From the NCBI GenBank assembly GCA_017940955.1, contig JAGAXP010000096.1, positions 1-19,875 of the forward strand: a stretch of DNA of 19,875 nt. Reading direction: 5' to 3'. This DNA is from Oribacterium sp. (GTDB lineage Bacteria; Bacillota_A; Clostridia; Lachnospirales; Lachnospiraceae). Positions within the stretch are counted from its first letter, which is position 1, and every line of letters begins with the position of its first letter. Both the position numbers and the translations under genes were made by a program. The notes under the pieces were generated by a model, which was not told the origin of the DNA, made no database searches, and was given only the letters and a program-made list of their open reading frames with translations. Shown piece by piece: positions 1 through 17,180 of this stretch.

Positions 1-1
1 A

Positions 2-85
2 GAAACCACCTGTGGGTACCTCCGGTATCTCTGAATGTAGAAGTTTGGTTGCTAATACATTACAGAAACACAGGTGGTTTTTCAA
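2..85. other. Long-loop hairpin with T tail; possible insertion-element right end
   Basis: Positions 3-14 (AAACCACCTGTG) are the exact reverse complement of 69-80 (CACAGGTGGTTT). They enclose a 54-base loop, and a short T run follows the right arm. Inside the loop, TACC and GGTA can form a small second stem. The four bases at 82-85 are TCAA, which is the right-end cleavage tetranucleotide known for IS608 of the IS200/IS605 family. The first gene downstream is missing its 5' part, so an inserted element end is a reasonable reading. The alternative is the intrinsic terminator of an upstream gene. No transposase coding sequence is visible, so neither choice is secure. Confidence 0.35.
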
Positions 86-113
86 TTGTTAAAAAATGGT
101 TTTAAGGTATGAT
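86..113 (+). promoter_or_regulatory. Candidate sigma-A promoter before the gene block
   Basis: TTGTTA at 86-91 and TATGAT at 108-113 are separated by 16 bases and resemble -35 and -10 boxes. Transcription would begin around 120, inside the first open frame. This would suit an outward promoter at an element end driving the intact genes downstream, but it argues against the ATG at 109 being a real start. Support is from consensus only. Confidence 0.3.
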
Positions 114-1257
114 TTTTACCCACCATCATACCCGAAGCCTCGTTTTTTTTCTGGATAAAAAGGCATCCCTTTTCTTTGGAGATAAGTCAGGCGTCCATGT
201 TCTGGAATCACTTTCTGAGTTTTACGCCGGGTATCGTGAAATGATCACGAAGTCTGTATATTACATAACATCCGAGAGGGATTTCAAGTTTGATAGTGAC
301 ATGTATATAGAGAAGCATTATCAATCGCTCCATATGATGGAGGGGCTTTTCTGGAGGACAAAGACAAAGCGTCTCGGAAATAAGAATCAGGACAAACATT
401 TCTGTCTGATCACAAATCCCATTGGGATGCAGGGGCTGGTGGACGTTGTGAAATTCACGCTGTTCAGAGCCATGATGCTGAAGAAGAAAAATATGGATTA
501 CATCCCCGTTGTGGCCCTTGATAAAGCAGGTGACAACAACCAGTTTAACGGCGGAAACGGAGAAGATGTATGGATGACCTTTTTTGAACAGCTCTCCCCC
601 TATACAGCTCAGGAGGTCAGGGAGAGTGCGGATGTTCTCGTATTGGGAGACCAACAGTTGATGTTTAATCCTTATCTTTTGGAGGAGTTTTACTACGAGG
701 ACTGGTCCATTATGTTCCGTGATTTTCTCAGATTTAATCCAAGGGTACTGGAGCATATCCGGAAAATGAAGGAAGAATTCCTTCCCGACAATCCGGGGAA
801 AGTACTTGGCGTGATAGGCAGAGGCACAGATTATAATTCGAGTCAGACTGCGGGGTTCCTGGGAAAGCCTCTGACAGGAGAGGAGCTGGAGAAAGAGGTG
901 GTTTCTCTTGTTGAAAAGCATGGATTTGACCATGTATTTCTTGCAACCGAGGATCAGTCGGTATTTGATGTTTTTATGAAGAGCGAGCTTATGGATAAGA
1001 TATTTTTCATCCCTCAGGAGAGGATTGATTACAGCGATTTGCAATTCCATGACAAGTACCTAGTGGATATCTACCGTGAGAAAAAAAGTGATGGGTACCG
1101 GAATACTATGAGGTATCTCGGAATCCTGGATATACTGGCACATGACTGTACGGCGATGGTGGCGACAGTGGATTGTGGAGCATACCATTTTGCGTTGGCA
1201 TTAAATGGTCACAGCTATGAATTTGCAAAAGCATACGCAACAACAAAACAGAGCTGA
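109..1257 (+). CDS. N-terminally truncated fucosyltransferase-like paralog (copy 1, probably broken)
   Basis: This 382-residue frame matches the three following paralogs (486-511 residues) from about residue 11 to its end but lacks their first ~110 residues. Family motifs remain: N-P-I-G-M-Q-G-L near 103-110, N-Q-F-N-G-G-N-G at 144-151, G-R-G-T-D-Y at 237-242, L-A-T-E-D at 278-282 and V-D-C-G-A at 354-358. The GRGTDY, LATED and late Cys-Gly block is arranged as in the GT23/O-fucosyltransferase superfamily, where an Arg-x-x-Asp element binds the nucleotide sugar. The ATG at 109 has only AAGG two bases upstream, a poor ribosome site. Just inside the frame, a T8 run (142-149) looks one T short: adding one T joins the codons P-E-A-S-F-F-F to L-D-K, matching P-D-K-F-L-F-F-L-D-K of copy 3. 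It is probably a decaying gene, although the catalytic half is intact. Translation starts 12 bp before copy 2. Confidence 0.55.
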   Translation: MIFTHHHTRSLVFFLDKKASLFFGDKSGVHVLESLSEFYAGYREMITKSVYYITSERDFKFDSDMYIEKHYQSLHMMEGLFWRTKTKRLGNKNQDKHFCLITNPIGMQGLVDVVKFTLFRAMMLKKKNMDYIPVVALDKAGDNNQFNGGNGEDVWMTFFEQLSPYTAQEVRESADVLVLGDQQLMFNPYLLEEFYYEDWSIMFRDFLRFNPRVLEHIRKMKEEFLPDNPGKVLGVIGRGTDYNSSQTAGFLGKPLTGEELEKEVVSLVEKHGFDHVFLATEDQSVFDVFMKSELMDKIFFIPQERIDYSDLQFHDKYLVDIYREKKSDGYRNTMRYLGILDILAHDCTAMVATVDCGAYHFALALNGHSYEFAKAYATTKQS

Positions 1258-1269
1258 CGGGGGAAGGAT

Positions 1270-2769
1270 ATGGTAAGAATAAAAGACGAACCCGGAAACC
1301 AAAGGATTGCCGATATCCGTCTTGCAATGAGCGGGAAAGTGTTTGAAGAGGCCAGAGATTTATTTTATGAAGACGAAGGACTTCAGGATAAACTGATTCC
1401 TGTTTTCCGTACAGGTGAGGAAGAACCACTGATGTATCTCCGATTTCAGAGCAATCTGTCGGAGGACTTTGACGGGGAAATGCGAAAACGTCTTCCTGTT
1501 TATGTAAGTGAATTCAGGAAATATGATGAAAGTGATCCCTGTATAGACCTTTCATTTCTGAAACGTGGAGAGATATATGTTTTCGATGAGATAGATGAGT
1601 ATTCGTATCTCTGTGCGAAGCTCATAGGAAAATATCTTCCGGAAGTCTATGTGTTTTTTACGGACAGCAGTGCAGGACTTTTCCTTGAAGAAACCGGACA
1701 TCGTCACATCATAGAAGGTATTTCGGATTTCTACCGTAAGTACGGATATCTGGTATCCAAATCCATAATCCATGTAATATCCAAATCCCTTGGAATGGAT
1801 CCTGACGACCCGGAGCAGTTTCTGAAGAAAAAGTATTCTTCGCTTGAACTTATGACAAGCTTATTCTGGCAGACAGAGTCCGAAAGCTTCGGTACGGAAA
1901 ATCCTGATAAGACCTTCTGCCTTATCCAAAATCCTCTGGGGATGGAAGGACTTGCCGATATGCTGAGGTTCGCTGTTTACCGCGCTGAGGCGGCGGTGAT
2001 GAATACACCGGAGTTTATCCCTGTTATCGATCTCTCTGTGATAGGGGACGATAACCAGTTTAACGGTGGTAACGGAGAGAATGTCTGGACCATGTTTTTC
2101 AGACAAATATCTGCTGTGCCGCCGGAAGAGGTTTACAAAAGCAAAAGAGTGATTCTTATGAGGGATAATCTGAGATCCTTAAATCCATGGATTCAGGAGC
2201 AGATTTTTTTTGCGGACGATAAGGCTCTGTTTTCAAAATGGGTACGTTTCTCTGATGCGACAGAGGAGTATGTCACAAATCTTTATGCTGATATCATACC
2301 TGAAGATTCGAAGCGGATCCTTGGAGTGATAGGCAGAGGATCTGATTACAATATGAATGCCATGGAGGGTATTTTAAACCGTCCGTCAGGACCCGGGGCT
2401 CTGCTTTCGTATGTGGAAAAGATCTTCAGAGAAGGATGCTATGACCGGATCTTTTTAGCCACTGAGGATGAGAATGTTTTTCGATGCTTTATGGATAGCA
2501 AGCTTAAAAATCACATCTCCTCAGTACCGCAGCCCAGAGTAAGCATAAGTCCGGATGACAACAGGTTCCTCGTGGATATATACAAGGAGGAAAACAGGGA
2601 CGGATACCGTGATAATCTTCGGTATCTGGGAATCATCCATATTCTGTCAAAGTGTACATCTTTGATTTCCAGTACAAACTGCGGTGCATATCGTCTGGCT
2701 CTTGGATTTAATGGAGGAAAGTACGAGAGTACTGAGGTTTACGATTTAAATGCTGCGAATCATCAGTGA
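1270..2769 (+). CDS. Fucosyltransferase-superfamily-like protein (copy 2)
   Basis: Full-length member of the tandem family, 499 residues, soluble, with no signal peptide or membrane segment. The N-terminal domain (about 1-200) has the shared element F-L-K-R-G-E-I-Y-V-F-D-E-I-D-E-Y-S-Y near 96-113. The C-terminal domain carries G-M-E-G-L-A-D at 224-230, N-Q-F-N-G-G-N-G at 262-269, G-R-G-S-D-Y at 355-360, L-A-T-E-D at 396-400 and S-T-N-C-G-A at 468-473. The last three blocks fit the GT-B fold of GT23/GT65/GT68-type fucosyltransferases (an Arg-x-x-Asp region, a Thr-Asp/Glu-Asp region and a small-residue loop), so transfer of fucose or another deoxysugar from a nucleotide donor in the cytoplasm is my inference. 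The family is certain only from the four-way similarity. The GGGGGAAGG stretch just before the ATG serves as the ribosome site. Confidence 0.65.
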   Translation: MVRIKDEPGNQRIADIRLAMSGKVFEEARDLFYEDEGLQDKLIPVFRTGEEEPLMYLRFQSNLSEDFDGEMRKRLPVYVSEFRKYDESDPCIDLSFLKRGEIYVFDEIDEYSYLCAKLIGKYLPEVYVFFTDSSAGLFLEETGHRHIIEGISDFYRKYGYLVSKSIIHVISKSLGMDPDDPEQFLKKKYSSLELMTSLFWQTESESFGTENPDKTFCLIQNPLGMEGLADMLRFAVYRAEAAVMNTPEFIPVIDLSVIGDDNQFNGGNGENVWTMFFRQISAVPPEEVYKSKRVILMRDNLRSLNPWIQEQIFFADDKALFSKWVRFSDATEEYVTNLYADIIPEDSKRILGVIGRGSDYNMNAMEGILNRPSGPGALLSYVEKIFREGCYDRIFLATEDENVFRCFMDSKLKNHISSVPQPRVSISPDDNRFLVDIYKEENRDGYRDNLRYLGIIHILSKCTSLISSTNCGAYRLALGFNGGKYESTEVYDLNAANHQ

Positions 2770-2817
2770 GCGGCATATACCTTTGATATTCTAATAATTA
2801 TTACGGAGGTTTTGCTT

Positions 2818-4278
2818 ATGATCTTAGTCGATTCCAAAATTCATGAAATGGGAACCAGGAGAACGCGACTGAAGCATTCGCCGGATGTATTTCTTAAGGC
2901 CCGGGATATGTATAAACAGTATTCAGAGATCCGAAGTGAGTGGATTTCCGTGACAGACGAGAACGGTAAACATCTTTACTATCTTCATTGGCGAAAAAAC
3001 GGAGATATTCAGTATATCAATGAAACTTTGCCGGCTGATGCGATGTGGGACTATGATCCAATGGACGTGGATCTGGACCTGACACTTTTGATGAGGGCAG
3101 ATGTATTCCTTTTTGAACAGTTGGATGAATACACTTATACAATTGCAACGATAATCCGAAGAGAACTGCCGGATAAATTTCTTTTCTTCCTGGATAAAAA
3201 TGCTTCTTTTTTCTTTGAAGAAGGTGACTGCCTGCATATAATCAATTCCATTGCAGAGTTTTATAACCGTTTTTACTATTTTGCCAAGAAAAGCCTCATG
3301 TATATCTCATCACAGCCGCTGGTGGTGCTGAATATGAACGCTGATGATACCTTCAGTAAAAGATATAACGCAATGAAGGTTATGGAAAGTATCTTCTGGA
3401 AAACCGAGAGGCTTTCCTTCGGAGAGCTGCATCCGGAAAAAACCTTTTACCTGATACGTAACCCGGTAAGCTTTGAAGGTTTGGGAGATGTGATACGATA
3501 TGTGGCAAACCGTATCGCGATGGTAAAAAAGAAACGTGGTAATATTATGCCTGTTGTGGATATCGGGACCTGGGGAGACGGGAACCAGTTTGATAAAAAT
3601 GGCGGAAATATCTGGACAATGTTTTTCAGGCAGCCATCGAGGGTTCCGTTGGAGGAGGTTTACCAGAGCAAAAATGTCCTCTTGGCAAAGATGCAGCAAT
3701 TCGTACTGAATCCATATGTCAGGGAAGAGCTTGTTTTTATGGACTGGAAGGTATTCATGAAGTATGTGAGTTTTAAGCCTGAAGTATTGGATCGTCTTCA
3801 GAAAGGCTACGGAGAGATATTCCGGGAAGTTGCGGGAGAAAGGATCCTTGGCGTCGTAGGGAGAGGCTCAGACTATACTTCCAGCAAGGTCGCCGGTGTG
3901 GTGAGGAAGCCTGTTGCACCGGAGGAATTTCTGGATAATATACGATCCCAGATGAAGGAAAAGGATTTTGATAAGTTGTTTCTCGCAACGGAGGATCAGG
4001 GCATCTTTGATCTTTTTATGGAAAGCGACTTGAAGGATAAGATACTGTCGGTTCCCCAAAAACGGATTGACTATAATGACGAACGGAATAAGGACAAGCT
4101 TCTGTCTGACATCTATGCCGAGATTGAATGGGATGGTTATGAAAATACTATGGATTATCTTCTGGTACTGTTCTGTCTTTCCAAGTGCAATGCTCTTGTT
4201 TCGACAACAAATTGCGGTGCATTTAACTGTGCGGTTGGTTTGAATGGCGGAAAATATGAGTACGCGTTTTACTATTGA
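2818..4278 (+). CDS. Fucosyltransferase-superfamily-like protein (copy 3)
   Basis: 486 residues. I start it at ATG 2818 because GGAGG at 2805-2809 sits 8 bases upstream; the in-frame TTG at 2812 is too close to that site. The N-terminal domain includes L-M-R-A-D-V-F-L-F-E-Q-L-D-E-Y-T-Y (about 91-107), and P-D-K-F-L-F-F-L-D-K follows near 118-127. The putative catalytic domain has G-N-Q-F-D-K-N-G-G at about 255-263, R-G-S-D-Y at 349-353, L-A-T-E-D at 389-393 and T-T-N-C-G-A at 463-468. It departs from its sisters at the NQF motif (Asp in place of Asn, with a shorter glycine stretch) and ends soon after the last motif, without the tail of copies 2 and 4. It may therefore use a different donor or acceptor. 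It lies 48 bp after copy 2 and 18 bp before copy 4. Confidence 0.65.
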   Translation: MILVDSKIHEMGTRRTRLKHSPDVFLKARDMYKQYSEIRSEWISVTDENGKHLYYLHWRKNGDIQYINETLPADAMWDYDPMDVDLDLTLLMRADVFLFEQLDEYTYTIATIIRRELPDKFLFFLDKNASFFFEEGDCLHIINSIAEFYNRFYYFAKKSLMYISSQPLVVLNMNADDTFSKRYNAMKVMESIFWKTERLSFGELHPEKTFYLIRNPVSFEGLGDVIRYVANRIAMVKKKRGNIMPVVDIGTWGDGNQFDKNGGNIWTMFFRQPSRVPLEEVYQSKNVLLAKMQQFVLNPYVREELVFMDWKVFMKYVSFKPEVLDRLQKGYGEIFREVAGERILGVVGRGSDYTSSKVAGVVRKPVAPEEFLDNIRSQMKEKDFDKLFLATEDQGIFDLFMESDLKDKILSVPQKRIDYNDERNKDKLLSDIYAEIEWDGYENTMDYLLVLFCLSKCNALVSTTNCGAFNCAVGLNGGKYEYAFYY

Positions 4279-4296
4279 TAAAAAGGGGAAATAAAG

Positions 4297-5832
4297 ATGA
4301 TCAGGATAAAGGATGTAAACAGCGGGAACCTTCATCCCGGAAAAATCTATCAGCTTAGGCATGACAGGGAAGAAGTCATCGAACTTGCAAGGGATATATT
4401 TCATGATAATCCTGAGGCACGTTGCGAGGATATTCCGGTAATGAACAGGGATACTGAGGAGGTCATGTATTATCTTTCGTGGCAGACCAATATGTCGAAG
4501 GATGTAGATGAAAAAATGCTCCAAATGTTTAACCCGTCCATTAATGAGCTTTGGGATTACGATTACAATGATGACAGGATGGATTTTGATATTCTGGAAA
4601 GAGCAGACGTTTTCCTCTTTAATGAGCTGGAGGAATACAGTTATGCCATCACAAAGATTATCCAGACATATTTTCCGGATAAGTATGTTTTTTTCAAGGA
4701 CAAGAGGGCACTGTGGTTTTTTGATGAGAGTGATCATTTGAAAACAATTGAGAATGACTCTGAATTATATAACCACTATTCATTCTGCCTGGAAAAGCCG
4801 ATCATGACGGTAAAGTCGGATGTTTTGCAATTTGCTCCGGAAACAAGAGATCCCATGAATCTGATTAATAAAAAGTATGTTTCTTCCGAAATCATGGTGG
4901 GACTTTACTGGCTTACAGATATGATGCACTTCGGAGACAAGAATCCGGACAAGACTTTCTTTCTCATCAAGAGCAGGCTTGGAATGATGGGACTGGCAGA
5001 CCTCATAAAATGGACCCTCTATCGTGCGAAGATAGCGGTAGACCATAGGAAAGGCAAAATCATTCCTGTGGTAGATCTTTCTGTGAAGGATGACGGGAAT
5101 CAGTTTAACGGAGGAGACGGAACCAATGCCTGGACCATGTTTTTTGAACAGATCACAGATATTCCGCTTGAAGAAGTATACCAAAGCGCCAATGTGGTAA
5201 GGGGAGCGGAGCAGCTCTTTATGTTAAATCCCTATATCAAGGAGGAAAGCCTGTTTTCCGATCACTGTACTCTCTTTCGAAGGTTTCTGCGTCTGAATGA
5301 AAAGGCGAAGAATATGTCAGATGAACTTTATGAAAAGGTGATTCCAAAGGACGCAAAACGAATTCTCGGAGTTGTGGGCAGGGGAACGGATTACAACCAG
5401 TCCTTCATTACTACTGTGCTGAACCAGCCTTCCGGACCGGCAGCCTTCCTTTCCAGAGTCACACAGGTATTTAAGGAGGGAAACTATGACTGTATATTCC
5501 TTGCGACAGAGGACGCCAATGTGTTCAGGATATTTACAGAAAGCCCTCTGAAGGATCGTATCGTCTATGTGGATCAGGATCGTGTGGATTATAACGCAAA
5601 TGAAAATAATGATAAATTTCTGATTGATATTTACGAAAATCAGAAAAAAGACAAGTATATGACCAATCTCAGATACCTGAGTATCATTACCATTCTTTCC
5701 AAATGTACATCGCTGATCGCAAGTACGGACTGCGGCGCCTTTATCACGGCGGTTGGCTTGAATGACCACAAATATGAATATGTTGAGGTCTTTATGAAAG
5801 CAGACGAAAAGATCAAAGGAGACAATAAATAA
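4297..5832 (+). CDS. Fucosyltransferase-superfamily-like protein (copy 4)
   Basis: The longest copy, 511 residues, beginning M-I-R-I-K-D like copy 2 (M-V-R-I-K-D), which suggests these two are the closest pair. AAGGGGAAA precedes the ATG. Shared N-terminal element: L-E-R-A-D-V-F-L-F-N-E-L-E-E-Y-S-Y near 100-116. Putative catalytic motifs: N-P-D-K-T-F-F-L-I at 216-224, G-N-Q-F-N-G-G-D-G at 267-275, G-R-G-T-D-Y at 361-366, L-A-T-E-D at 402-406 and S-T-D-C-G-A at 476-481. A short lysine-rich tail ends the protein. The next gene begins one base after its stop and its ribosome site (AAAGGAG, 5815-5821) lies inside this coding sequence, so the two are likely translationally coupled. Glycosyl transfer is inferred from fold-level motifs; donor and acceptor are unknown. 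Confidence 0.65.
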   Translation: MIRIKDVNSGNLHPGKIYQLRHDREEVIELARDIFHDNPEARCEDIPVMNRDTEEVMYYLSWQTNMSKDVDEKMLQMFNPSINELWDYDYNDDRMDFDILERADVFLFNELEEYSYAITKIIQTYFPDKYVFFKDKRALWFFDESDHLKTIENDSELYNHYSFCLEKPIMTVKSDVLQFAPETRDPMNLINKKYVSSEIMVGLYWLTDMMHFGDKNPDKTFFLIKSRLGMMGLADLIKWTLYRAKIAVDHRKGKIIPVVDLSVKDDGNQFNGGDGTNAWTMFFEQITDIPLEEVYQSANVVRGAEQLFMLNPYIKEESLFSDHCTLFRRFLRLNEKAKNMSDELYEKVIPKDAKRILGVVGRGTDYNQSFITTVLNQPSGPAAFLSRVTQVFKEGNYDCIFLATEDANVFRIFTESPLKDRIVYVDQDRVDYNANENNDKFLIDIYENQKKDKYMTNLRYLSIITILSKCTSLIASTDCGAFITAVGLNDHKYEYVEVFMKADEKIKGDNK

Positions 5833-5833
5833 T

Positions 5834-6943
5834 ATGAGTACTGGAGATAGCGGAAGTAAAAGACTGGTAACGCTTGATATCGCAAAAGGAATAATGATCC
5901 TTATGGTTATCCTGATTCATGTCTTTTTGTTCAACGAAAAGCTGATTGAAGCAATGTCCATCATTTTGGGAAACATTCTTTTGCCTTTGTTCTTCTGGGC
6001 AAGTGGTTACACCTACCGGACAGGCAGAGGTTTTCGTGCAAATGTCAAAAAACGAATACCCTACCTTTTGAAGGTGTATTTTTTCTATTCCTTCGGAATC
6101 CTTTTGGTGGGAAGTGCTTTATTTCTTGCATTGGGAATTCCTGTCAGGGATATCAGAAATCAGATTCTGACCCATTTTCTCGGTGAGCCGCTTCTGAATC
6201 TGATAGTTCCGGAGCTTATCAATACCGGGTGGTTGTGGTCTATGGTGGCTCCTCTGTGGTTCCTGATCCAGATGATGCTCGGAAGTATTATATTATACGC
6301 AATTGCCGAAAAAGCCCTTGAGAATAATTCGAATTTCATTCTCATATCGGCGTTTCTCATTGCAACAGGAACCTGCCTCACAGCATTTGTTCCACAGCTT
6401 CCTTTTAATCTCCAGTCCACTCCGGTGATCGCTTTCTTCATGCTGTCGGGAGCGTTTTCGGGACAGCACAGGTGGCTGCATAAATATGAGGAATGGAGTA
6501 TCGGAAGACTGATAGCTTCAGTGGTTCTTTTTTCTGTTTTGCAGCTTTCGGTTGCCGATGTCTACCATGGGGGAAATGCTCTCTCAAAGGGCTACTTTAC
6601 CACTGATGAAGCTACAAGGGTTATTTCAATTTATGCCACACTCCTTAGTTTTGTTTTTGGAATGATGGCTTTTCTGGGATTTTCTGTTTTGGTGGGCAAA
6701 ATAAAAGGTGTCAGTGCCGTATTCAGCTGGATAGGAAGAAATTCCCTTTCCTTCTACATCATTCATATGCCGGTTGCTTTGCTTTTGGCTTTTTTTACTG
6801 CAAGTATCCCCGGGCAGCGGTCAAGTGAAGAGCTTCTCATCATCTATATCGGACTCTACTTTATTACCGTTTTGATCTGCGCATTATGGGGAGCTATGGA
6901 AAACAAGATCAAGTCGATATTGACGGAGAAGAAAAGACCTTAA
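5834..6943 (+). CDS. Membrane O-acyltransferase, acyltransferase-3 family (fucose 4-O-acetylase/NolL-like)
   Basis: An integral membrane protein of 369 residues with about ten hydrophobic segments. It opens with L-D-I-A-K-G-I-M-I-L-M-V-I-L-I-H (14-29). The Asp-x-Ala-Lys-Gly...His form is typical of the acyltransferase-3 branch that includes fucose 4-O-acetylases such as rhizobial NolL; OafA-type members usually have Asp-Gly-x-Arg. F-W-A-S-G-Y near 54-59 and I-G-R-N-S-L-S-F-Y-I-I-H-M-P near the C terminus are also family hallmarks. Members move acetyl or other short acyl groups from acyl-CoA across the membrane onto sugar hydroxyls. Its position directly after the glycosyltransferase-like genes (1-bp gap) and before the exporter suggests it decorates the glycan they make. 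The family call is firm; the substrate is inferred. Confidence 0.8.
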   Translation: MSTGDSGSKRLVTLDIAKGIMILMVILIHVFLFNEKLIEAMSIILGNILLPLFFWASGYTYRTGRGFRANVKKRIPYLLKVYFFYSFGILLVGSALFLALGIPVRDIRNQILTHFLGEPLLNLIVPELINTGWLWSMVAPLWFLIQMMLGSIILYAIAEKALENNSNFILISAFLIATGTCLTAFVPQLPFNLQSTPVIAFFMLSGAFSGQHRWLHKYEEWSIGRLIASVVLFSVLQLSVADVYHGGNALSKGYFTTDEATRVISIYATLLSFVFGMMAFLGFSVLVGKIKGVSAVFSWIGRNSLSFYIIHMPVALLLAFFTASIPGQRSSEELLIIYIGLYFITVLICALWGAMENKIKSILTEKKRP

Positions 6944-6960
6944 ATTTGGGGAGTTTTGTT

Positions 6961-8718
6961 ATGACAAAAATGTTAGGGCTGATGACGAAAAGAGATAAGG
7001 AATTCCTGGGACTTTCACTGATTTTTTCCGTTATCCAGGTATGGCTGAACCTCAGAATTCCGAAAATCATGGGGGGGATAACAACGCTTCTCAGTAACGG
7101 AAATGCAGATCATTCTTCTGTGATTTCGGCGGGACTTTCCATGCTTTTTTATGCTGCATTAAGTCTTATGGCCTCTTCTTTTGTTGTTTTTCTCTCTGCC
7201 AGGATAAGCTGCTCTTTGGGAAGAAAACTCAGGAATGAGCTTTTCCATAAGATCATGTCCTTTTCTCAGGAGGAAACAGCAGCTTTTGGGTCGTCCAGTC
7301 TGATTACCCGCTGCACAGGAGATGTGGTGATGATCGAACAGATAGTTTCCGCAGGGGTGCAGATTATTTTTTACGCACCTGCAATTGCCGTTTTTGCCAT
7401 AATCATGATGTCCGGTACAAACCTGATCTGGACAGTGGTAACTCTTGTGCTTCTTATGTCCATGACGATGCTGATGTATTTTCTTCTACACCTAACAAGG
7501 GACACTATCATAAACTTACAGAAAAAAACTGATACCTTAAACCGCGTAAATCGGGAGCATATAGAAGGTCTCAAGATTATTCATGCTTTTAATGCCTATG
7601 AATATCAGCGGAAGAGAAGCCTTGATGCAATAGAAGACCTTAATGAGTCAGTATTTTCATTAAGCCGGATAACCTCGGCGCTGTTGCCTCTGGGAAACGG
7701 AATAGGGAATCTTCTTGGGATACTCATTTACACCATAGGAGCTTATGTTATTCAGGCTGCAGCAGTAACTGAGAGAGTGGGACTGTTTTCTGACATGGTG
7801 GTTTTTTCTTCATTTGCCGCCCTTGCAACCATGGCCATCATGCAAATTGTTATGGTTTATATCGTCTTTATGAGAGGCATGGCATCTCAGATGAGAATAA
7901 TCGAGGTGCTGGATAAAGAAGTAAGGATAAAAGACTCTTCTGATGAAAAGTGTCCGCTAAAGACAGGTACCATTGAGTTTAAAAATGTTTCTTTCCGTTA
8001 TCCCGGAGCCGCCGCCGATACGCTTAAAAACATTACATTTAAAATCAACAAGGGGGAAACGGTGGCTCTTATCGGGGCTACAGGCTGCGGAAAAACTTCC
8101 ATTATGAATCTTATCCCGAGAATGTACGATGTTTCGGATGGCGAAGTTCTTGTTGACGGTGTCGATGTCCGGGATTATAAGCTGGCTGAGCTTCGGAGCA
8201 GAATTGGTTATGTGCCTCAGAAAAGCATATTGTTTTCAGGGACAATAGCACAAAATATTGATTTTGCCGAAGGAATCGGATTTCAAAGGACTCTTTCCCA
8301 TATCAGGGAAGCTGCCAGAGTCGGGCAGGCTGACAGTTTTATAGAAAAACGAGAGGGACAGTACTATGCCAGGGTGGAGCAGGGAGGCTCCAATTTCTCG
8401 GGAGGTCAGAGGCAGAGACTTAATATATCCAGAGCGATCTCAAGAGATCCTGAGATATATCTTTTTGATGATTCCTTTTCCGCACTCGATTTTGAAACTG
8501 ACAGACGTTTAAGAAAAGCCCTGAGAGAGTCATCGCAAAATGCCACAGTGCTTATGGTGGCGCAGAGGATACAGACCATTAAAAATGCCGACAGGATACT
8601 TGTGTTGGACAAGGGAATGATAGTCGGTGAGGGAAGACATGAGGAACTTCTTTCATCCTGCCGGGTATATAAAGAAATTGCCATGTCCCAGTTACCGAGG
8701 GAGGTGGGGACAAAATGA
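6961..8718 (+). CDS. ABC exporter half-transporter, degenerate-site subunit
   Basis: A 585-residue fused exporter subunit with a six-helix transmembrane domain (about 1-310) followed by a nucleotide-binding domain. I chose ATG 6961, with GGGGAG at 6948-6953, over an upstream in-frame start at 6886 that would overlap the acyltransferase gene. Walker A is G-A-T-G-C-G-K-T at 372-379, the signature is S-G-G-Q at 480-483 and Walker B ends in D503-D504. The usual catalytic Glu is Asp504, and the switch His is Gln535 (V-A-Q-R-I-Q-T-I), so this subunit's own ATP site should be hydrolytically weak. Its intact SGGQ would complete the active site of the partner. This is the arrangement of heterodimeric exporters such as TM287/288 and BmrCD. 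The 4-bp ATGA overlap with the next gene supports a pair made in equal amounts. The likely cargo is the product of the surrounding enzymes. Confidence 0.9.
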   Translation: MTKMLGLMTKRDKEFLGLSLIFSVIQVWLNLRIPKIMGGITTLLSNGNADHSSVISAGLSMLFYAALSLMASSFVVFLSARISCSLGRKLRNELFHKIMSFSQEETAAFGSSSLITRCTGDVVMIEQIVSAGVQIIFYAPAIAVFAIIMMSGTNLIWTVVTLVLLMSMTMLMYFLLHLTRDTIINLQKKTDTLNRVNREHIEGLKIIHAFNAYEYQRKRSLDAIEDLNESVFSLSRITSALLPLGNGIGNLLGILIYTIGAYVIQAAAVTERVGLFSDMVVFSSFAALATMAIMQIVMVYIVFMRGMASQMRIIEVLDKEVRIKDSSDEKCPLKTGTIEFKNVSFRYPGAAADTLKNITFKINKGETVALIGATGCGKTSIMNLIPRMYDVSDGEVLVDGVDVRDYKLAELRSRIGYVPQKSILFSGTIAQNIDFAEGIGFQRTLSHIREAARVGQADSFIEKREGQYYARVEQGGSNFSGGQRQRLNISRAISRDPEIYLFDDSFSALDFETDRRLRKALRESSQNATVLMVAQRIQTIKNADRILVLDKGMIVGEGRHEELLSSCRVYKEIAMSQLPREVGTK

Positions 8719-10463
8719 AAAATCTGATCAGTTACCTAAAAGAATACAGACTTTATATGGCTGTCGCGCTTACGGCTGCTGTGGTCGCTTCTGTTCTTTC
8801 CGCGCTGCTTCCCTCGCTGGCCGGGAGCATTACGGAAAAGATTCAGGTGGGTCTCACATTGGAACCGGATATGACCGGAATCATCAATACTACATGGATC
8901 GCTGTTTCTTTCATAGCTGTGATCGCGATTTTTGGTTATGCCCAGGGGATACTGATGTCCATGGTATCTCTTCGGCTGACTAAAAGACTTCGCATGGAGC
9001 TTGGCAACAAGCTTGACCGTGTACCACAGTCCATATTTGACGGAGGCTTGAGCGGAGACATCATAAGCCGCCTGACCAATGATATGGAACTTTTGTCTGA
9101 TGCACTTTCGGGACAGCTGGTGAATATCATTTCAAACACTGTGCTGCTTGTAGGGTGTCTCGTTATGATGTTTGTCACAAATCCCATTCTTGCGCTGACA
9201 GTTGTTATCTCCACCTTAATCGGGCTTTTTGCGGCTGCCTATTTTGCCGGAATGGGTCAGGAGGTTTATGCAAAACGTCAGACGGAGCTTGGACTTCTTA
9301 ACGGAATGATCGAAGAAAACCTCACCGGACATCTTGTGATCAAGGCGTTTAACTGTGAAGAGAGCGTCTGCGAGACCCTGGAAGAACAGGCAGACAGTCT
9401 TTACGAAGCTGGCTGGCGTTCTTCATTTATCTCGGGATTGATGGCTCCGATGGTTCTCTTCTGCGGAAACTTAAGCTATGTGATGGTCTGTATAACAGGA
9501 GCACTGCTCATGGTGAGCAGCTTTGGGAATACCGATTTCCCTTGCATTATAGCCTTTATTATGTATGCCAAGATGTTTTCGACACCTCTGGCACAGATGG
9601 CTGCTTCGGTTTCATCTCTTCAGCAGGGTCTTGCCGGGGCTGATCGTATTTTTGAGTTTCTTGGTGAGGAAGAGATGGAAATGCCTGTTGAAGAGGAGAC
9701 ATCATCCGACCGGGAAAAAGAGTTTAAGCCGGTCAGAGGAGAGGTGATCTTTTCGCATGTATGCTTCGGATATACAAAGGATGAGCCGGTTATACGTGAT
9801 TTTTCAAGAAGGGTTTCTCCCGGTAAAAAGATCGCCATCGTGGGACCTACAGGAGCAGGTAAAAGTACCCTCATTAACCTTTTGATGCGTTACTATGAGC
9901 TCACTCATGGACATATCACCATAGATGGCGAAGATATAACATCTGTCAGCAGAAGAGAGCTTCACGAAAAGCTTGCAATAGTACCACAGGATTCCTGGGT
10001 GTTTGAGGGAACCGTCCGTGAAAATATCATCTATTCCAAAGAAAATGTTTCGGAAAAGACATTCACGGATATACTTGAAAAGTGTGGTTTGACAGAGTTT
10101 GTTTCCACATTACCCGATGGAGCTGATATGGTGCTTTCTGAAAATACTACCATATCTGCAGGACAGAAGCAGCTGATCAATATCGCAAGGGCTATGATTA
10201 AAAATGCCCCCATACTTATCCTGGATGAGGCTACTTCCTCCGTGGATACCAGAAGCGAGGTACTTATTCAGGAGGCGCTTGATGCCCTTACCTGTGGTCG
10301 GACCAGTTTTGTGATCGCTCATCGCCTTAGCACGATTCAAAATGCTGATGAGATATATGTTCTGAAGGACGGAGATATCGTAGAAACAGGAACCCATGAA
10401 GAACTGCTTGACAGAGACGGGGTTTATGCGGCGTTGTACCGCGCACAGTTTGACAGCGAATGA
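8715..10463 (+). CDS. ABC exporter half-transporter, catalytic-site subunit
   Basis: 582 residues: six transmembrane helices (about 1-300), then a nucleotide-binding domain. Walker A is G-P-T-G-A-G-K-S-T at 377-385, Walker B ends in D504-E505 with the catalytic Glu, and the switch His is H536 in I-A-H-R-L-S-T-I. The signature is S-A-G-Q (481-484) instead of SGGQ. The defects are complementary to those of the upstream subunit: this protein supplies the good Walker A/B, Glu and His, and the partner supplies the good signature. One competent and one degenerate ATP site are therefore expected in the heterodimer. The start ATG overlaps the previous stop as ATGA. After its stop, 126 bp separate it from the next gene, with no strong T-tailed hairpin, so readthrough is possible. 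Confidence 0.92.
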   Translation: MKNLISYLKEYRLYMAVALTAAVVASVLSALLPSLAGSITEKIQVGLTLEPDMTGIINTTWIAVSFIAVIAIFGYAQGILMSMVSLRLTKRLRMELGNKLDRVPQSIFDGGLSGDIISRLTNDMELLSDALSGQLVNIISNTVLLVGCLVMMFVTNPILALTVVISTLIGLFAAAYFAGMGQEVYAKRQTELGLLNGMIEENLTGHLVIKAFNCEESVCETLEEQADSLYEAGWRSSFISGLMAPMVLFCGNLSYVMVCITGALLMVSSFGNTDFPCIIAFIMYAKMFSTPLAQMAASVSSLQQGLAGADRIFEFLGEEEMEMPVEEETSSDREKEFKPVRGEVIFSHVCFGYTKDEPVIRDFSRRVSPGKKIAIVGPTGAGKSTLINLLMRYYELTHGHITIDGEDITSVSRRELHEKLAIVPQDSWVFEGTVRENIIYSKENVSEKTFTDILEKCGLTEFVSTLPDGADMVLSENTTISAGQKQLINIARAMIKNAPILILDEATSSVDTRSEVLIQEALDALTCGRTSFVIAHRLSTIQNADEIYVLKDGDIVETGTHEELLDRDGVYAALYRAQFDSE

Positions 10464-10502
10464 ATATAAGATTATATTGAACTACCGGGTGGCAGGTGCT
10501 TT

Positions 10503-10530
10503 TTGGTTTGTTCAAGGTATCTTTTACAAT
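10503..10530 (+). promoter_or_regulatory. Weak candidate promoter before the acyltransferase pair
   Basis: TTGGTT at 10503-10508 and TACAAT at 10525-10530 are 16 bases apart in the 126-bp gap between the exporter and the first condensation-fold gene. The -10 box is good and the -35 box poor. It would allow separate expression of the acyltransferase pair. Confidence 0.25.
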
Positions 10531-10589
10531 ATGACCAAAGCTGCAAATAAGGAATAGAATGGGTGAGACTATACAATACGAGGTATTTT

Positions 10590-11921
10590 ATGGAAAAGAA
10601 AATGATAAAGCCATCTATGAATGATCTGAAAACAGATGACCGGAATGTGGTTTTTCCTATTTATGCCGGTTTGTTTGCACGCTGTTCCTACCCAGTATCA
10701 AAAGCATTTTTTATGTCCTTCAGGTTTGAGCTGGATCGTGAAGCAGACGAAGCATCACTGAAAAAAGCCTGGGATGAGACAACAAAGGTTTATCCATACC
10801 TTACCTATGCGGTTGTTGTACGGAACGGAAAATATGAGATGGCAAAAAATCCGCTGCCTTTTGTAATCTGTGAAACAGAAGAGGTCCTTGAGCCTTTCGG
10901 AAAGACCGGTAATTTCCATACCACAACCATATGCTATAAAGGAAAAACACTTCATTTTTATATTGATCATGTACCCTTTGACGGAACCGGAGTCCGGTTT
11001 TTAATGGAGACGTTTTTCTATTACTATTATTGTTTTTCTGATGGGATAGATTATCCTGTACCGGAGGGCATACTCACTAAAAAAGACATTCCCATAGAAG
11101 GACTTTGTGAAGATGCATACCTTGATACAAGAGTGAAGCCCATAGACATAAATCCGGAGAAGGCATTTGCAGATGAAAAAACCTTTTTGATGCCGGAAAG
11201 CACTGACCGGGTTCTTTTTGTTCCGGCAGAAAATTGCGCATGTTTTTGCATATCAGTGCCAAAGAAAGATATGATGGATTATGCCAAAAGTGTATCGGGG
11301 ACTCCCATGTCGCTGATATCTGTGCTTATTGCCTGTGCAATTCAGTCTGTACACCCGGACAATAAGCTTCCTGTCAAGATTTCTACGCCTGTAAGCATAC
11401 GAAAAGTTATGGGGAATGAACATTCTCTGCTTCACCAGATTGTTCACATGAAATATATGTTTGATCCGGACAGTCTGATGGAAGAGGGTGGAGAAGGAAA
11501 ACTCATAAGGGATTACCGCGCGTTTCTAAAGGACTTTACGTCAGAGGACAATATTATAACCATGTGCGGTGTATACAGCGGAATCATTCAAGGAATGATG
11601 AAGCTTATGGAAAAGGGAGATACTGAAGAAACCATAATAAAGCTTCGGGAAAACGGTGAGGCAGCCATTGCTGTAAGTTATATCGGTCAGCTTAAAACAG
11701 GGGAGTATGGAAACAGGTTTAGGATGACTGTATTTCGTACCATGCGTGAAAATGGCATTATGGTGCAGGCTGTCGAAATAGGAGGAGTATTTTATCTCTG
11801 CTGGTATCAGGGATTTCTAAGTGACTGTTATGTAAAGGTGTTGACGAAGCTTTTTAAGAAGCTTGGAATGAAAAACGCTGTACTTGAACGTATACCCGAT
11901 CAGACTGTGAGAAGTTTGTGA
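10590..11921 (+). CDS. Stand-alone condensation/BAHD-fold acyltransferase (copy 1)
   Basis: 443 residues from ATG 10590, which has GAGGT five bases upstream. A GTG at 10563 in the same frame would add nine residues and cannot be excluded. The protein has the CoA-dependent acyltransferase / NRPS condensation fold pattern: H-V-P-F-D-G at 127-132 gives the catalytic HxxxDG with His127, and P-V-S-I-R-K-V-M-G near 267-275 resembles the conserved region of the second lobe. A late G-E-Y-G-N-R-F (about 371-377) precedes a final strand with W-Y-Q-G-F. There is no adenylation or carrier-protein domain, and none is encoded nearby, so it resembles PapA-type, alcohol acetyltransferase or BAHD enzymes that acylate an alcohol or amine more than it resembles an NRPS module. 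In this context it may attach an acyl chain to the glycan or lipid product. The substrate is unknown. Confidence 0.7.
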   Translation: MEKKMIKPSMNDLKTDDRNVVFPIYAGLFARCSYPVSKAFFMSFRFELDREADEASLKKAWDETTKVYPYLTYAVVVRNGKYEMAKNPLPFVICETEEVLEPFGKTGNFHTTTICYKGKTLHFYIDHVPFDGTGVRFLMETFFYYYYCFSDGIDYPVPEGILTKKDIPIEGLCEDAYLDTRVKPIDINPEKAFADEKTFLMPESTDRVLFVPAENCACFCISVPKKDMMDYAKSVSGTPMSLISVLIACAIQSVHPDNKLPVKISTPVSIRKVMGNEHSLLHQIVHMKYMFDPDSLMEEGGEGKLIRDYRAFLKDFTSEDNIITMCGVYSGIIQGMMKLMEKGDTEETIIKLRENGEAAIAVSYIGQLKTGEYGNRFRMTVFRTMRENGIMVQAVEIGGVFYLCWYQGFLSDCYVKVLTKLFKKLGMKNAVLERIPDQTVRSL

Positions 11922-11970
11922 GTAGGGAATTGCGGCCTGAAAAACAGCTTTAACAGATGAGCCGGATAGA

Positions 11971-11987
11971 TTGACATCTGTGTGTCA
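11971..11987. promoter_or_regulatory. TTGACA box overlapping a small inverted repeat
   Basis: In the 111-bp gap before the second acyltransferase gene, a consensus TTGACA (11971-11976) overlaps a 5-bp inverted repeat, TGACA-6-TGTCA (11972-11987). No good -10 box follows at 16-18 bases. It could be a promoter with an operator, or chance. Confidence 0.15.
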
Positions 11988-12032
11988 GAAATTAACGGCT
12001 AAACCACACGCATACAGATGAGGAGAAATAGT

Positions 12033-13424
12033 ATGATTAAAAATGAAAGTTCAGGGATCGATGTCGGGGCGCAAGTCCCTGGCTTCTCGGACAATTCCTT
12101 AAATAAAGACAGAATAAAGACAACACGAGATCTTGAAACAGCATTATACGATGATGCCGGAACCGAGGGCTGGAAAGAAATACGTCCGGTAACGGCAGGA
12201 ATGTTTGCAAGAGCTGCATATCCCACAGATAAGATATATTATATGACCTATAGGTTCGACCTGAAGGAATGTATCGATGCTTCTGCGCTCAAACAGGCGT
12301 GGGAAAAAACGATCAAGGTATATCCATATGTCACCTATGCAACAGTGGTACGCCGCAATATGCTGGTATTCACGGAAAATCCTCTGCCCTTTGTATTCGG
12401 GGAAACGGGTGAAGTGATCGAGCCTTCAACTCCGGAAGCCAATTTCCATACGGTGACTATATGCTATCTTGACAATATACTCCGGATTTATGTAGATCAT
12501 GTTCCTTACGACGGAACCGGCTTCATGCATGTACTTGAGACATTTTTTTATCATTATTACAGCATTACAGATGAACGGGAATATCCTGTGCCGGAAGGTG
12601 TCCATACGGAAGCAGAAGGTGCTGTTCCCGGACAGGATACAGATGCTTATCTTGAGCTTCCTCCTATGGATCCGACAGAATTAATGACCACTTTTAGGGA
12701 AATACAGGTGTTTGAGACACCGGAAAGTCCCAGAGATTGCCTCTTCGTGCCGGAGGCTGACTGCAGGGAATTTTGCATCAGCATACCTTCCGCAGGATTC
12801 ATGGACTATTCGAAATCGGTAAAGGGCAGTCCTATGTCAGTACTGTATGTATGCTTTGCGAAGGCATTGCAAAGAATACATCCGGAGAATAAAGCTCCCT
12901 TTAGCTTCATGGTTCCCGTAAGCATTCGTAAGGTTATGGGGAATACTGATTCACTTTTGCATCAGGTTGTACATTTTAATTACAGCTTTAATGTCTTAGA
13001 ACTGTCGGAAAAAACAGATGAAGAATTAAATACAGAATTTCGTGCTGCGCTTTCTGACTATTCCCGGGAAAAGAACATAAAGAAGGCTGCTGGTGTATAT
13101 CGTTCAATATGTGAGGGAAATACGAAGGCATATATTGACGGCACATTGAATAAGATCATTATGGATCAGCGAAAAAATCCGAAAGTCGGTGCCGGAGTCA
13201 GCTATCTCGGAACTATGCGTACAGGAGACTACGGAAGCCGCATCCGCATGACCGCTTTCCATACAATGCCGGACAGGGGTATAACGCTTCAGGTTACGGA
13301 AGTAGGAGGATATTTCTATATCGACTGGTATCAGGGATTTCATTCGGAAGACTATGTACTGGCCATGCGGGATATCCTTGCTGAGAAGGGGATTTGCGGG
13401 ATAAAGGTTGAAGGAGCGGAATGA
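12033..13424 (+). CDS. Stand-alone condensation/BAHD-fold acyltransferase (copy 2)
   Basis: 463 residues from ATG 12033, chosen because AGGAG (12021-12025) lies seven bases upstream; an ATG at 12018 precedes that site. It is a clear paralog of the preceding gene, with collinear matches such as T-A-G-M-F-A-R-A-A-Y-P (54-64), K-V-Y-P-Y-V-T-Y-A (95-103) and P-V-S-I-R-K-V-M-G. The catalytic HxxxDG is H-V-P-Y-D-G at 156-161. It has ~30 extra polar N-terminal residues and a longer acidic linker after the first lobe. Both copies keep the catalytic His, so two distinct acyl transfers, or a working heteromer, are more likely than one enzyme plus a dead relative. No signal peptide is seen, so it should act in the cytoplasm. 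It is the last gene of the accessory block; what follows looks unrelated. Confidence 0.7.
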   Translation: MIKNESSGIDVGAQVPGFSDNSLNKDRIKTTRDLETALYDDAGTEGWKEIRPVTAGMFARAAYPTDKIYYMTYRFDLKECIDASALKQAWEKTIKVYPYVTYATVVRRNMLVFTENPLPFVFGETGEVIEPSTPEANFHTVTICYLDNILRIYVDHVPYDGTGFMHVLETFFYHYYSITDEREYPVPEGVHTEAEGAVPGQDTDAYLELPPMDPTELMTTFREIQVFETPESPRDCLFVPEADCREFCISIPSAGFMDYSKSVKGSPMSVLYVCFAKALQRIHPENKAPFSFMVPVSIRKVMGNTDSLLHQVVHFNYSFNVLELSEKTDEELNTEFRAALSDYSREKNIKKAAGVYRSICEGNTKAYIDGTLNKIIMDQRKNPKVGAGVSYLGTMRTGDYGSRIRMTAFHTMPDRGITLQVTEVGGYFYIDWYQGFHSEDYVLAMRDILAEKGICGIKVEGAE

Positions 13425-13499
13425 ATCGGAATAGGATCAAAGTATGAATAAAACAGCGTTAATACATGAGATGAGTCTGAATACAGAACAGAGGAATAT

Positions 13500-14822
13500 A
13501 TGGAATCAACAACCAGAGAAATAACAGTAGATGAATTTGAAACCTGGCCAAAGGAGAGCTATACCCTTATAGATGTTCGGGAGGAACAGGATTTTCTGAC
13601 AGGAAAAATGCCGGATGCCATGAGGGTGGATCTTGTGAACATAGCAGATCAGAATCATACCATTCCTAAGGACAAAAAGGTTGTTCTTTACTGCAAGTAT
13701 GGCGAGCTTTCCCTGGCAGCTGCTGATAACCTTGCGGATCAGGGGTATGAAGCCTACAGCCTGCAGGGCGGCTACGGAAAATGGGTACTTCACCAGATAC
13801 AGAGAGACATTGATTCAGATAAGAGAAGAGAAGACATAGAAAAGTCTCTCCGAAAGAAGTTCAAGAGAAACATTTACGGCATGTTTGTAAAAGCTATCTG
13901 TGATTACAACCTTGTGGAAGAGGGAGACAAGATCGCTGTCTGCATTTCCGGCGGCAAGGATTCGATGCTTATGGCTAAGCTTTTTCAGGAGCTTAAGCGT
14001 CATAACAAGCTTCCTTTTGAGGTTGTGTACCTTTGCATGGATCCCGGCTACAACGAGGCGAACCGTAAGATTATAGAGAGAAATGCTGAGCTAATGGGCA
14101 TTCCTCTCACTATTTTTGAAACAAACATATTTGATTCGGTTTACAACATTCCAAAGTCACCCTGCTACGTCTGTGCCCGCATGAGAAGGGGATATCTTTA
14201 TAAAGAAGCCCGGAAGCTGGGCTGCAACAAGATAGCTCTCGGACATCACTTTGATGACGTGATTGAAACCATTCTTATGGGAATGCTTTATGCCGGGCAG
14301 TATGAGGCCATGATGCCGAAGCTTCACTCCACCAACTTCCCGGGGATGGAGCTCATCAGGCCTTTATACCTCGTGCATGAGGCGGAAATAAAGCATTGGC
14401 GGGACTACAATCACCTTAACTTTATACAGTGTGCCTGCCATTTCACAGCCACCTGCTCCACCTGTCATACCGACGGACAGACCAGCTCAAAGCGGCTTGA
14501 AACCAAGCATCTCATAGAAAAACTTAAGGAGACTAATCCGTACGTTGAACGAAACATCTTCAGCGCCATGGAGAACATAAGTCTGAACAAGATCCTTGGC
14601 TTCAAGCGTCAGCATGTGAAGCACAGCTTCCTTGAGTGGTATGATAATGAAAACGACCTGAAGATCGGAGTTCTCACTGAAGACGAGATTCATCTGGAGG
14701 ATGAGAAGCGAAAGGCTCAGGAGCTTCAGAAGGAGAAGGCCCGCATTGATTCCATGCCGAAATCCGAACAGGCCAGAAAGAACGCGGAAGAGAACAGGAA
14801 AAACGCTAACTTCCGAAAGTGA
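13500..14822 (+). CDS. Rhodanese-TtcA-like PP-loop sulfurtransferase fusion
   Basis: A 440-residue two-domain protein. Residues 1-100 form a rhodanese domain (L-I-D-V-R-E near 23-28, active-site Cys65 in L-Y-C-K-Y-G), which carries sulfur as a persulfide. Residues ~115-390 form a PP-loop ATPase of the TtcA/TilS group with S-G-G-K-D-S at 150-155, the P-C-Y-V-C motif (C222, C225) and a Cys-rich block with C311, C313, C319 and C322. TtcA proteins bind an iron-sulfur cluster through such cysteines and make 2-thiocytidine in tRNA. Fusion to a rhodanese domain suggests the sulfur donor is built in. The last ~50 residues are a charged Lys/Glu-rich tail, possibly helical. GAGG lies about five bases before the ATG. 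The exact tRNA or other substrate is not determined by the motifs; a role in the biosynthetic block upstream is not suggested. Confidence 0.8.
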   Translation: MESTTREITVDEFETWPKESYTLIDVREEQDFLTGKMPDAMRVDLVNIADQNHTIPKDKKVVLYCKYGELSLAAADNLADQGYEAYSLQGGYGKWVLHQIQRDIDSDKRREDIEKSLRKKFKRNIYGMFVKAICDYNLVEEGDKIAVCISGGKDSMLMAKLFQELKRHNKLPFEVVYLCMDPGYNEANRKIIERNAELMGIPLTIFETNIFDSVYNIPKSPCYVCARMRRGYLYKEARKLGCNKIALGHHFDDVIETILMGMLYAGQYEAMMPKLHSTNFPGMELIRPLYLVHEAEIKHWRDYNHLNFIQCACHFTATCSTCHTDGQTSSKRLETKHLIEKLKETNPYVERNIFSAMENISLNKILGFKRQHVKHSFLEWYDNENDLKIGVLTEDEIHLEDEKRKAQELQKEKARIDSMPKSEQARKNAEENRKNANFRK

Positions 14823-14839
14823 AATCTTATCCAACGGTA

Positions 14840-14887
14840 AATCCACCGGGGACGGTTCTCGCTGGCGAGAACCGTCCCCGGTGGATT
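14840..14887. repeat. REP-like palindrome, copy A
   Basis: Two 23-base arms (14840-14862 and 14865-14887) are perfect reverse complements around a 2-base centre. The core GGGGACGGTTCTC and its complement GAGAACCGTCCCC recur in copy B, 1.1 kb downstream. The palindrome lies between the TtcA-like and radical SAM genes. It has no T run, so it is better read as a REP-type dispersed repeat than as an intrinsic terminator, although the transcript would form a strong hairpin. Confidence 0.8.
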
Positions 14888-14982
14888 ACTTAGTATCATG
14901 AACAGTCGATACAACGGATAATAAATCGTGTCCGGATAATACCGGTATAGAATCTTGCGGACAAATAAAGTGGTCATAGAAA

Positions 14983-15933: not shown

Positions 15934-15944
15934 CAGATATGCCG

Positions 15945-15996
15945 TAAAACCACAGGGGACGGTTCTCACCGGCGGGAACCGTCCCCGGCGGTTTTA
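15945..15996. repeat. REP-like palindrome, copy B
   Basis: Imperfect palindrome centred at about 15970, with the core GGGGACGGTTCTC opposite GGGAACCGTCCCC. Outer arms TAAAACC and GGTTTTA pair with two mismatches between them and the core. The core is shared with copy A, while the flanking bases and loop differ. It starts 12 bases after the radical SAM stop and runs into T-rich sequence (GGTTTTAG, then GGGTTTT), so it may also end that transcript. Confidence 0.75.
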
Positions 15997-16079
15997 GCTG
16001 GGTTTTAATGACCTTCGATTCCGGCTATTATGGTTCGACTATACCGATGCATATTGTCATACAATCTTGCGATAAGCTC

Positions 16080-16108
16080 TTGAAATTGCCGACAAAGTGA
16101 TTTAGAAT
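16080..16108 (+). promoter_or_regulatory. Candidate sigma-A promoter of the isomerase gene
   Basis: TTGAAA at 16080-16085 and TAGAAT at 16103-16108 are separated by 17 bases, the preferred spacing. They lie about 48 bases before the isomerase start, within the 222-bp intergenic region that also holds REP-like copy B. Confidence 0.5.
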
Positions 16109-16155
16109 GATTTTTAGTAAAACGGTTAACTTTTATGCAATTAAGGAGAAATATA

Positions 16156-16797: not shown

Positions 16798-16830
16798 GTT
16801 CAAAAAATATCTCAGCTTTACGAAAGAGCA

Positions 16831-17137
16831 GGTCAGAGCCGGAGGGCATCCATTTAAAGCCGTTAAGCTGAGTCGAGAAAAACCAAAATCGGACCCCTTA
16901 GAACTACTTGGATTCCATTTTCCTTAGCACCCTCGCCAAGTCAGATTTTTCATAAAGAAAATATCTGACATTGCTGCCCAAGATTTTTTAATCTTGGGAG
17001 CCGCGCGGCTTTGAGCGGTTCAAAAGAATCCGTCAGGATTCTTTCTTTACCGAGGGCCTAGTGGTTCTTAGGGGTCCGATTTTAGTTTTTTCCGACGAAG
17101 CGCCTCGGCTTTAAATGGATGCCCTCCGGCTCTAACC
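16831..17137. repeat. 307-bp long inverted-repeat element with internal hairpins (MITE-like or structured RNA)
   Basis: The 486-bp gap 16798-17283 has no credible gene and holds this element. Arms 16831-16911 and 17057-17137 align without gaps at about 68 of 81 positions, including a perfect 28-base block (16835-16862 with 17106-17133) and a perfect 14-base block (16885-16898 with 17070-17083). Between the arms lie three hairpins (16941-16968; 16977-16984 with 16991-16998; 17023-17031 with 17036-17044, loop GTCA) and a 12-base palindrome at 16999-17010. Folded, it would be a long stem closing a multibranch loop. Terminal inverted repeats and size suit a non-autonomous transposable element; the nested hairpins also suit a structured RNA. 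I saw no clear target-site duplication. Confidence 0.75.
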
Positions 17138-17180
17138 GAACCATTTGATTAAGTGAAATATATTTGTAAGTCCTGCTTCA

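Follow-up and report, generated by a model that had tools for sequence, protein, structure and literature searches.

The window analysed here comprises 19,875 nucleotides of an Oribacterium sp., a gut-type anaerobe (contig JAGAXP010000096.1, positions 1 to 19,875). Between positions 109 and 13424 it carries nine genes which encode four glycosyltransferase-like proteins (GT1-GT4), a membrane O-acyltransferase (AT3), two ABC half-transporters (ABC1 and ABC2) and two condensation-fold acyltransferases (CD1 and CD2). We consider it probable that this locus represents a biosynthesis-and-export operon for an acylated glycoconjugate, either an oligosaccharide or a small molecule with several sugars. 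We infer the catalytic activities with their donors and acceptors, the order of steps and the use of the ABC pair for this very product: GT2-GT4, and GT1 if still active, would each add or decorate one sugar, CD1 and CD2 would transfer acyl groups in the cytoplasm onto the sugar chain or the aglycone, the donor being acyl-CoA or a carrier protein whose gene lies elsewhere, AT3 would perform an O-acylation step, probably at or across the membrane, and ABC1/ABC2 would export the product. Computation shows which folds GT4 and CD2 adopt and which motifs occur, that the four GTs form separate clades, that GT and CD are fused in relatives, and that their combination with ABC pairs recurs. Open reading frame (ORF) calling placed all nine genes on the + strand with successive gaps, from GT1 to CD2, of 12, 42, 18, 1, -58, -4, 99 and 96 nt, confirming the closely spaced co-directional gene set proposed in the initial annotation of this DNA.

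The same annotation spoke of four glycosyltransferase-like paralogs. Indeed, all six pairs of GT1-GT4 share 39-45% identity. Structures were predicted for two proteins, GT4 and CD2, and the GT4 model shows a fucosyltransferase-type GT-B fold of the GT23 type, which places this paralog inside a glycosyltransferase fold as had been anticipated. GT1, however, is not a whole gene and is most likely cut by an insertion sequence (IS). The four proteins carry a RG[ST]D motif that is the same in 64 of 66 aligned rows and in 80 of the 84 GT ORFs of loci L001-L078, TE[DE] is found in 65/66 rows, and 18 columns are invariant. The fold of GT4 is common to the GT23 enzymes NodZ and FUT8 (with POFUT1/2 and plant FUT1). 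NodZ and FUT8 possess the nucleotide-sugar motif HxRR(T)D with its double arginine, whereas the window GTs read RG[ST]D, have no Pfam assignment and show an extra N-terminal region of ~210 residues. GT1-GT4 remained unmatched by the Pfam NodZ/FUT8 models at E <= 1, and PDB sequence searches with GT4 and with a GT profile gave no match. The FUT8 model produced a sub-cut-off match in 4 of 10 GT relatives; the NodZ model was silent on genome G001 but carries no weight there, as its controls were silent too. GT1-GT4 are best explained as an unnamed sister family of the FUT8/NodZ/POFUT fucosyltransferases, presumably with catalytic activity.

In the tree, GT1-GT4 fall into separate supported clades, each with relatives from other loci, which rules out a simple recent tandem duplication. 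GT2 is 99% identical to homolog P0012 (next P0007/P0009/P0010/P0014, 48-53%), and GT3 has an ortholog at L001:7049-8590 (61%, clade support 100). The unnamed family thus has at least four separate clades and is in need of annotation. Four of four genomes examined in the genus of G001 are GT-positive. Among the relatives, P0050 represents a second fusion type which joins a GT to an APH-type kinase domain, and L010:9089-11491 encodes an 800-aa GT protein whose N-terminal ~300 residues have no assignment.

The two condensation-fold acyltransferases of the initial annotation are borne out by the CD2 model, a condensation/PapA fold with the two lobes of a chloramphenicol-acetyltransferase-like protein, and by the 45% identity of CD1 to CD2. 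Both proteins possess the motif HxxxDG. PF00668 did not match CD1 or CD2 at E <= 1 while it did match the condensation (C) domains of L004, L005 and L007, and a PDB search with a CD profile gave chance-level matches only. PapA5 and the condensation domains of nonribosomal peptide synthetases (NRPS) belong to the BAHD/alcohol acyltransferase superfamily, and the condensation-domain motif has the form HHxxxDG. CD1 and CD2 differ in having D for the first H and in standing alone, and there are relatives in which the CD is fused behind a GT.

These fusions link the two families directly. We found 54 CD2 homologs and aligned the 13 long ones (620-801 residues). As a GT motif precedes the CD in 13/13 of them, GT and CD are one polypeptide in these proteins. 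Genomic GT-CD fusions of 785-890 residues are present in G004, G006, G062, G145, G203 and G389, and HxxxDG is mostly intact in the GT-fused acyltransferases. The fused GTs represent another subfamily of the same GT family, with 22-30% identity to GT1-GT4 over mostly partial alignments and 34-37% to those of L120 and L180. CD2 (together with stand-alone P0122) adjoins the G062 fusion in the CD tree, and CD1 lies further out, grouping with P0150. Since CD2 nests inside a fusion-containing clade, the tree suggests that it split off from a fused ancestor. In Coriobacteriia, which belong to another phylum, GT and condensation-fold genes occur as an adjoining two-gene pair (L019, L021 and L028).

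Fucosyltransferase-type GTs and NRPS-type condensation domains are usually studied apart; here they are neighbours, and in relatives they are fused. We speculate, as a tentative idea that may well be wrong, that both form an undescribed enzymatic unit, as a pair or as one polypeptide, which first glycosylates an acceptor and then acylates or aminoacylates it. In relatives such a unit would be plugged into NRPS, ATP-grasp or glycan assembly lines, so that gut and rumen Lachnospiraceae and Coriobacteria would export a family of acyl-glycoconjugates. If GTs and CDs act together, acylated glycans could be made in this way in gut and rumen bacteria, about whose exported molecules little is known, and the fused genes offer a single testable enzyme for glycosylation plus acylation. 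Searches of the open-access literature listed no apparent paper on GT-condensation fusions or on this gene set; folds and pathway logic are known, and their combination seems undescribed.

Co-occurrence was analysed in 397 genomes, a sample from a larger family in which 3-4 candidates were scored per genome, so that the tallies are lower bounds. GT was found in 44 genomes, CD in 16 and both in 11 (hypergeometric, 2.6e-8). Without the four fusion genomes and G007, which has a broken CD copy, the ratio was 6/11 versus 39/392 (2e-4). At the level of operons, 34 loci have a full-length-type GT (L001-L034 less L018, plus L038). A condensation domain lies in the same operon in 10 of these, an APH-type kinase in 13 and either one in 17. 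None of 42 distant GT loci (L035-L078 less L038 and L066) has a condensation domain or an APH-type kinase in the operon; L018 and L066 were omitted from both counts as no GT ORF was called.

Related clusters occur in several genomes. In G005 (L127), G316 (L131) and G406 (L180), an ABC pair, an ATP-grasp ligase, a GT and CDs lie together, the GT of L131 being a 470-aa frame found by genome search rather than ORF calling. An APH-type kinase was called in L127 and L131. L120 (G089), outside the G001 genus, has the same gene set, and in G001 the same gene types are spread over two short contigs (L118 and L181). Of 61 G001 relatives searched for CDs, none gave a match at E <= 1e-20; at E <= 1e-3, G001 and G005 match. 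L118, L120, L127 and L131 each encode two condensation-fold proteins, one with HxxxDG and one in which a motif search did not find it, which suggests an active/inactive pair.

The clearest independent support for a logic of sugar, acyl transfer and export is L156 in G316, because there the window set recurs with unrelated glycosyltransferases. It holds an ABC pair, an AT3, two GT2 family enzymes, a Branch-family enzyme, a carboxylesterase and two condensation-fold proteins, the second of which (motif HSLGDG) was detected at E 5.4e-32 with a broader profile not containing it. L156, L178 and L179 appear as a parallel acyl-glycan locus of this genome.

AT3 had been called NolL-type. It is an acyltransferase-3 protein by PF01757, and the label says no more than that. 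The protein carries K18-x10-H29 as well as RxxR-like motifs. Passages of a review (PMC9558356) tie K/R-x10-H and RxxR-like motifs of acyltransferase-3 proteins to acyl-CoA binding and also cover NolL. The ABC genes agree with the heterodimeric exporter of the initial annotation, as each encodes a half-transporter with PF00664 and PF00005. ABC1 has a degenerate nucleotide-binding domain (NBD) site (Walker B FDDS, Q in the H-loop, VAQR), and ABC2 has the canonical LDEA and AHR with the signature variant ISAGQ. One degenerate and one canonical NBD site are the usual pattern of asymmetric heterodimeric exporters, a likeness seen here in sequence motifs. The -58 overlap between AT3 and ABC1 is probably an artefact of start choice, because alignments with the closest relatives of ABC1 start at about residue 22-30 and further Met codons lie at 26 and 29. 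Across the nine proteins, Pfam gave credible matches for AT3 and the ABC domains only, with none for GT1-GT4, CD1 and CD2. In NCBIfam the ABC proteins alone match, all below cut-offs (among the matches listed, 25 per protein).

NodZ, NolL and NodIJ act in the decoration and export of Nod factors, and the initial annotation saw the logic of this system in the locus. Both have enzymes of NodZ fold, one acyltransferase-3, one exporter and an acyl-transfer step, which makes the picture a fair analogy of logic. As a close parallel it fails: NodA, NodB and NodC were not recognised among the nine proteins, the double arginine of NodZ is absent, and ABC1 and ABC2 have transmembrane and nucleotide-binding domains fused, unlike the separate ATPase (NodI) and permease (NodJ). 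The window also differs in its four GT paralogs and its condensation-fold acyltransferases. In mycobacteria, acylated oligosaccharides such as lipooligosaccharides and acyltrehaloses are made by GTs and Pap acyltransferases. The window likewise pairs GTs with PapA-fold acyltransferases, pointing to an acylated sugar, but has ABC rather than MmpL export, no polyketide synthase in the window and an unrelated GT family.

A number of observations weigh against an acylated glycoconjugate operon. No product, substrate or sugar-nucleotide gene was seen, and the window holds no acyl carrier. The GT motif lacks the histidine and second arginine of the NodZ/FUT8 motif. In the nearest GT array (L001), a MATE protein takes the place of the ABC pair, and the stretch is free of CDs. 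L156 has HxxxDA rather than HxxxDG in its first CD, and neither its AT3 nor that of L005 is significantly related to the window AT3 beyond the Pfam family. ABC1-like exporters are common (201/397 genomes at E <= 1e-110); 20 best ABC1 stretches were fetched, of which 0 have a GT and 18 no CD, the two with a CD beside the ABC pair being L148 (a 3.9-kb contig) and L156. Of 21 regions around stand-alone CDs, 19 are without GT (present in L120 and L127) and 18 without ABC pair (present in L118, L120 and L127). Finally, the co-occurrence statistics disregard kinship among the genomes and rest on few scored candidates in each. The six fusion regions include one ABC pair on the stretch (L111), and the exact gene set of the window was absent from every locus fetched. 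Since ABC, stand-alone CD and fusion regions mostly occur without the other partners, the families recombine freely. The linkage that the initial annotation had predicted holds insofar as the families co-occur elsewhere, even fused, but the ABC and CD families are also found apart.

A different product would be expected if the locus were a trimmed NRPS-type cluster, with adenylation (A) and carrier genes located upstream past the IS or at another genomic site and with CD1/CD2 using an aminoacyl thioester to form amide or ester bonds, so that a glycosylated or acylated peptide-like molecule is made. The window is cut at the IS and upstream genes are outside its view. GT kin lie near proteins with A, peptidyl carrier protein (PCP) and C domains in L004-L009, a second cluster of G005 (L147/L007) has the order ABC-ABC-CD-C-(A-T-C)-(A-T-C)-APH-GT, and in G406 the stretch that holds GT, ATP-grasp ligase and ABC pair also encodes a C-A-PCP protein with this type of CD. 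The earlier statement that NRPS adenylation and carrier domains are missing is therefore true of the nine window proteins but not of related loci, which do carry NRPS genes. That absence from the nine proteins, the position of CD1/CD2 in a clade of GT-CD fusions whose six fetched regions have no adenylation-domain match, and the fit of four GTs and AT3 with a sugar-rich product make a trimmed NRPS cluster unlikely, though it is the most serious competitor.

It is less probable still that the GTs and CDs act on a surface polymer of the cell itself, such as teichoic acid or capsule, with an unrelated multidrug exporter lying between them. ABC pairs of this kind are widespread in the family, mostly at a distance from CDs and GTs, the neighbours of GT-CD fusion genes vary, the relative L003 shares its gene run with a Pfam fucosyltransferase (PF07429) and an FkbM methyltransferase, and distant GTs (e.g. 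L035-L037) occur in long co-directional runs. Yet an ABC pair adjoins a condensation-fold gene in L118, L120, L147, L148 and L156 and shares the stretch with one in L127, L131 and L180, and the best ABC1 match among the 397 genomes (G178, L148) has such a gene adjoining. The paralogs might also be inactive, carbohydrate-binding or regulatory relatives that retained the GT fold, in line with the lack of a credible Pfam family and the alteration of HxRR to RG[ST]D. The near-complete conservation of RG[ST]D and TE[DE], the invariant columns and the fusion to acyltransferases with mostly intact HxxxDG render this very improbable. We thus favour an operon for an exported acylated glycoconjugate.

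Table 1. Features of the locus and of its left edge in the window
Feature	Position	Strand	Assignment
GT1	109..1257	+	fucosyltransferase-fold paralog by homology to GT4, 5'-truncated by IS; motifs GRGTDY, FLATED
GT2	1270..2769	+	fucosyltransferase-fold paralog by homology to GT4
GT3	2812..4278	+	fucosyltransferase-fold paralog by homology to GT4
GT4	4297..5832	+	fucosyltransferase-fold paralog (predicted), extra N-terminal region ~210 residues
AT3	5834..6943	+	membrane O-acyltransferase, PF01757, E 2.1e-24
ABC1	6886..8718	+	exporter half-transporter, degenerate NBD, PF00664 + PF00005
ABC2	8715..10463	+	exporter half-transporter, canonical Walker B + H-loop, PF00664 + PF00005
CD1	10563..11921	+	stand-alone condensation/PapA-type acyltransferase by homology to CD2; motif DHVPFDGTG
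CD2	12018..13424	+	stand-alone condensation/PapA-fold acyltransferase (predicted); motif DHVPYDGTG
IS end	1..141	n/a	ISL3-family insertion sequence end; stem-loop nt 2-81

GT1 has 382 residues compared with ~495 in its kin and lacks ~115 N-terminal residues relative to orthologs. Its homology to P0016 (60%) and P0011 begins at residue 11 (nt 139), which equals their residue 125. The first 141 nt of the window are 77% identical to DNA of Butyrivibrio fibrisolvens plasmid pNP243 adjoining an annotated ISL3 transposase, a match that overlaps the transposase start by 9 nt and ends at nt 141, and the stem-loop has -37.1 kcal/mol (z -6.35). Because of the homology start, the pNP243 match and the stem-loop, it is most likely that an ISL3-type element interrupts GT1 in its 5' part and that the ATG at 109 belongs to the element. 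Genes upstream of it lie beyond the window. A weak promoter-like site (86-113) is located inside the element; such sites are no commoner than in shuffles.

On the 3' side of the operon follow a gene with rhodanese and PP-loop domains, a radical-SAM gene, an RpiB-like gene and a transglycosylase/transpeptidase penicillin-binding protein, four gene types that look like ordinary cell genes. The first (13500-14822) joins a rhodanese domain to a PP-loop (TtcA-like) domain in one gene, and its best homologs in four genomes of the G001 genus are shorter and without the rhodanese part. Its G316 homolog is ~7 kb from the L156/L178 cluster; that version has no rhodanese part either, and we claim no synteny from it. 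The radical-SAM gene had no match in that genus in a search without positive control. Rfam and tRNA scans of the window gave no result.

Parts of partner-switching systems (STAS, SpoIIE phosphatase, HATPase_c_2) turn up here and there in biosynthetic operons of the relatives (L004, L006, L007 and L108) and, by similarity markers, also occur in L008, L009, L118, L120, L127 and L131. A SpoIIE or HATPase protein accompanies the GT in L004, L006, L008 and L009. Some are fused to enzymes or transporters, as STAS-APH, methyltransferase-STAS and MatE-HATPase. We know of no described system of this kind.

The two genes compared, CD2 and GT4, gave no sign of a plasmid or phage origin. CD2 had no match in a plasmid collection, and GT4 had a single weak match (25.8%, E 2e-11), to an unannotated 5.3-kb 'Bacteriophage sp.' record. 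This record from human faeces (MT838417.1:78-794) encodes a relative of the catalytic part of the GTs.
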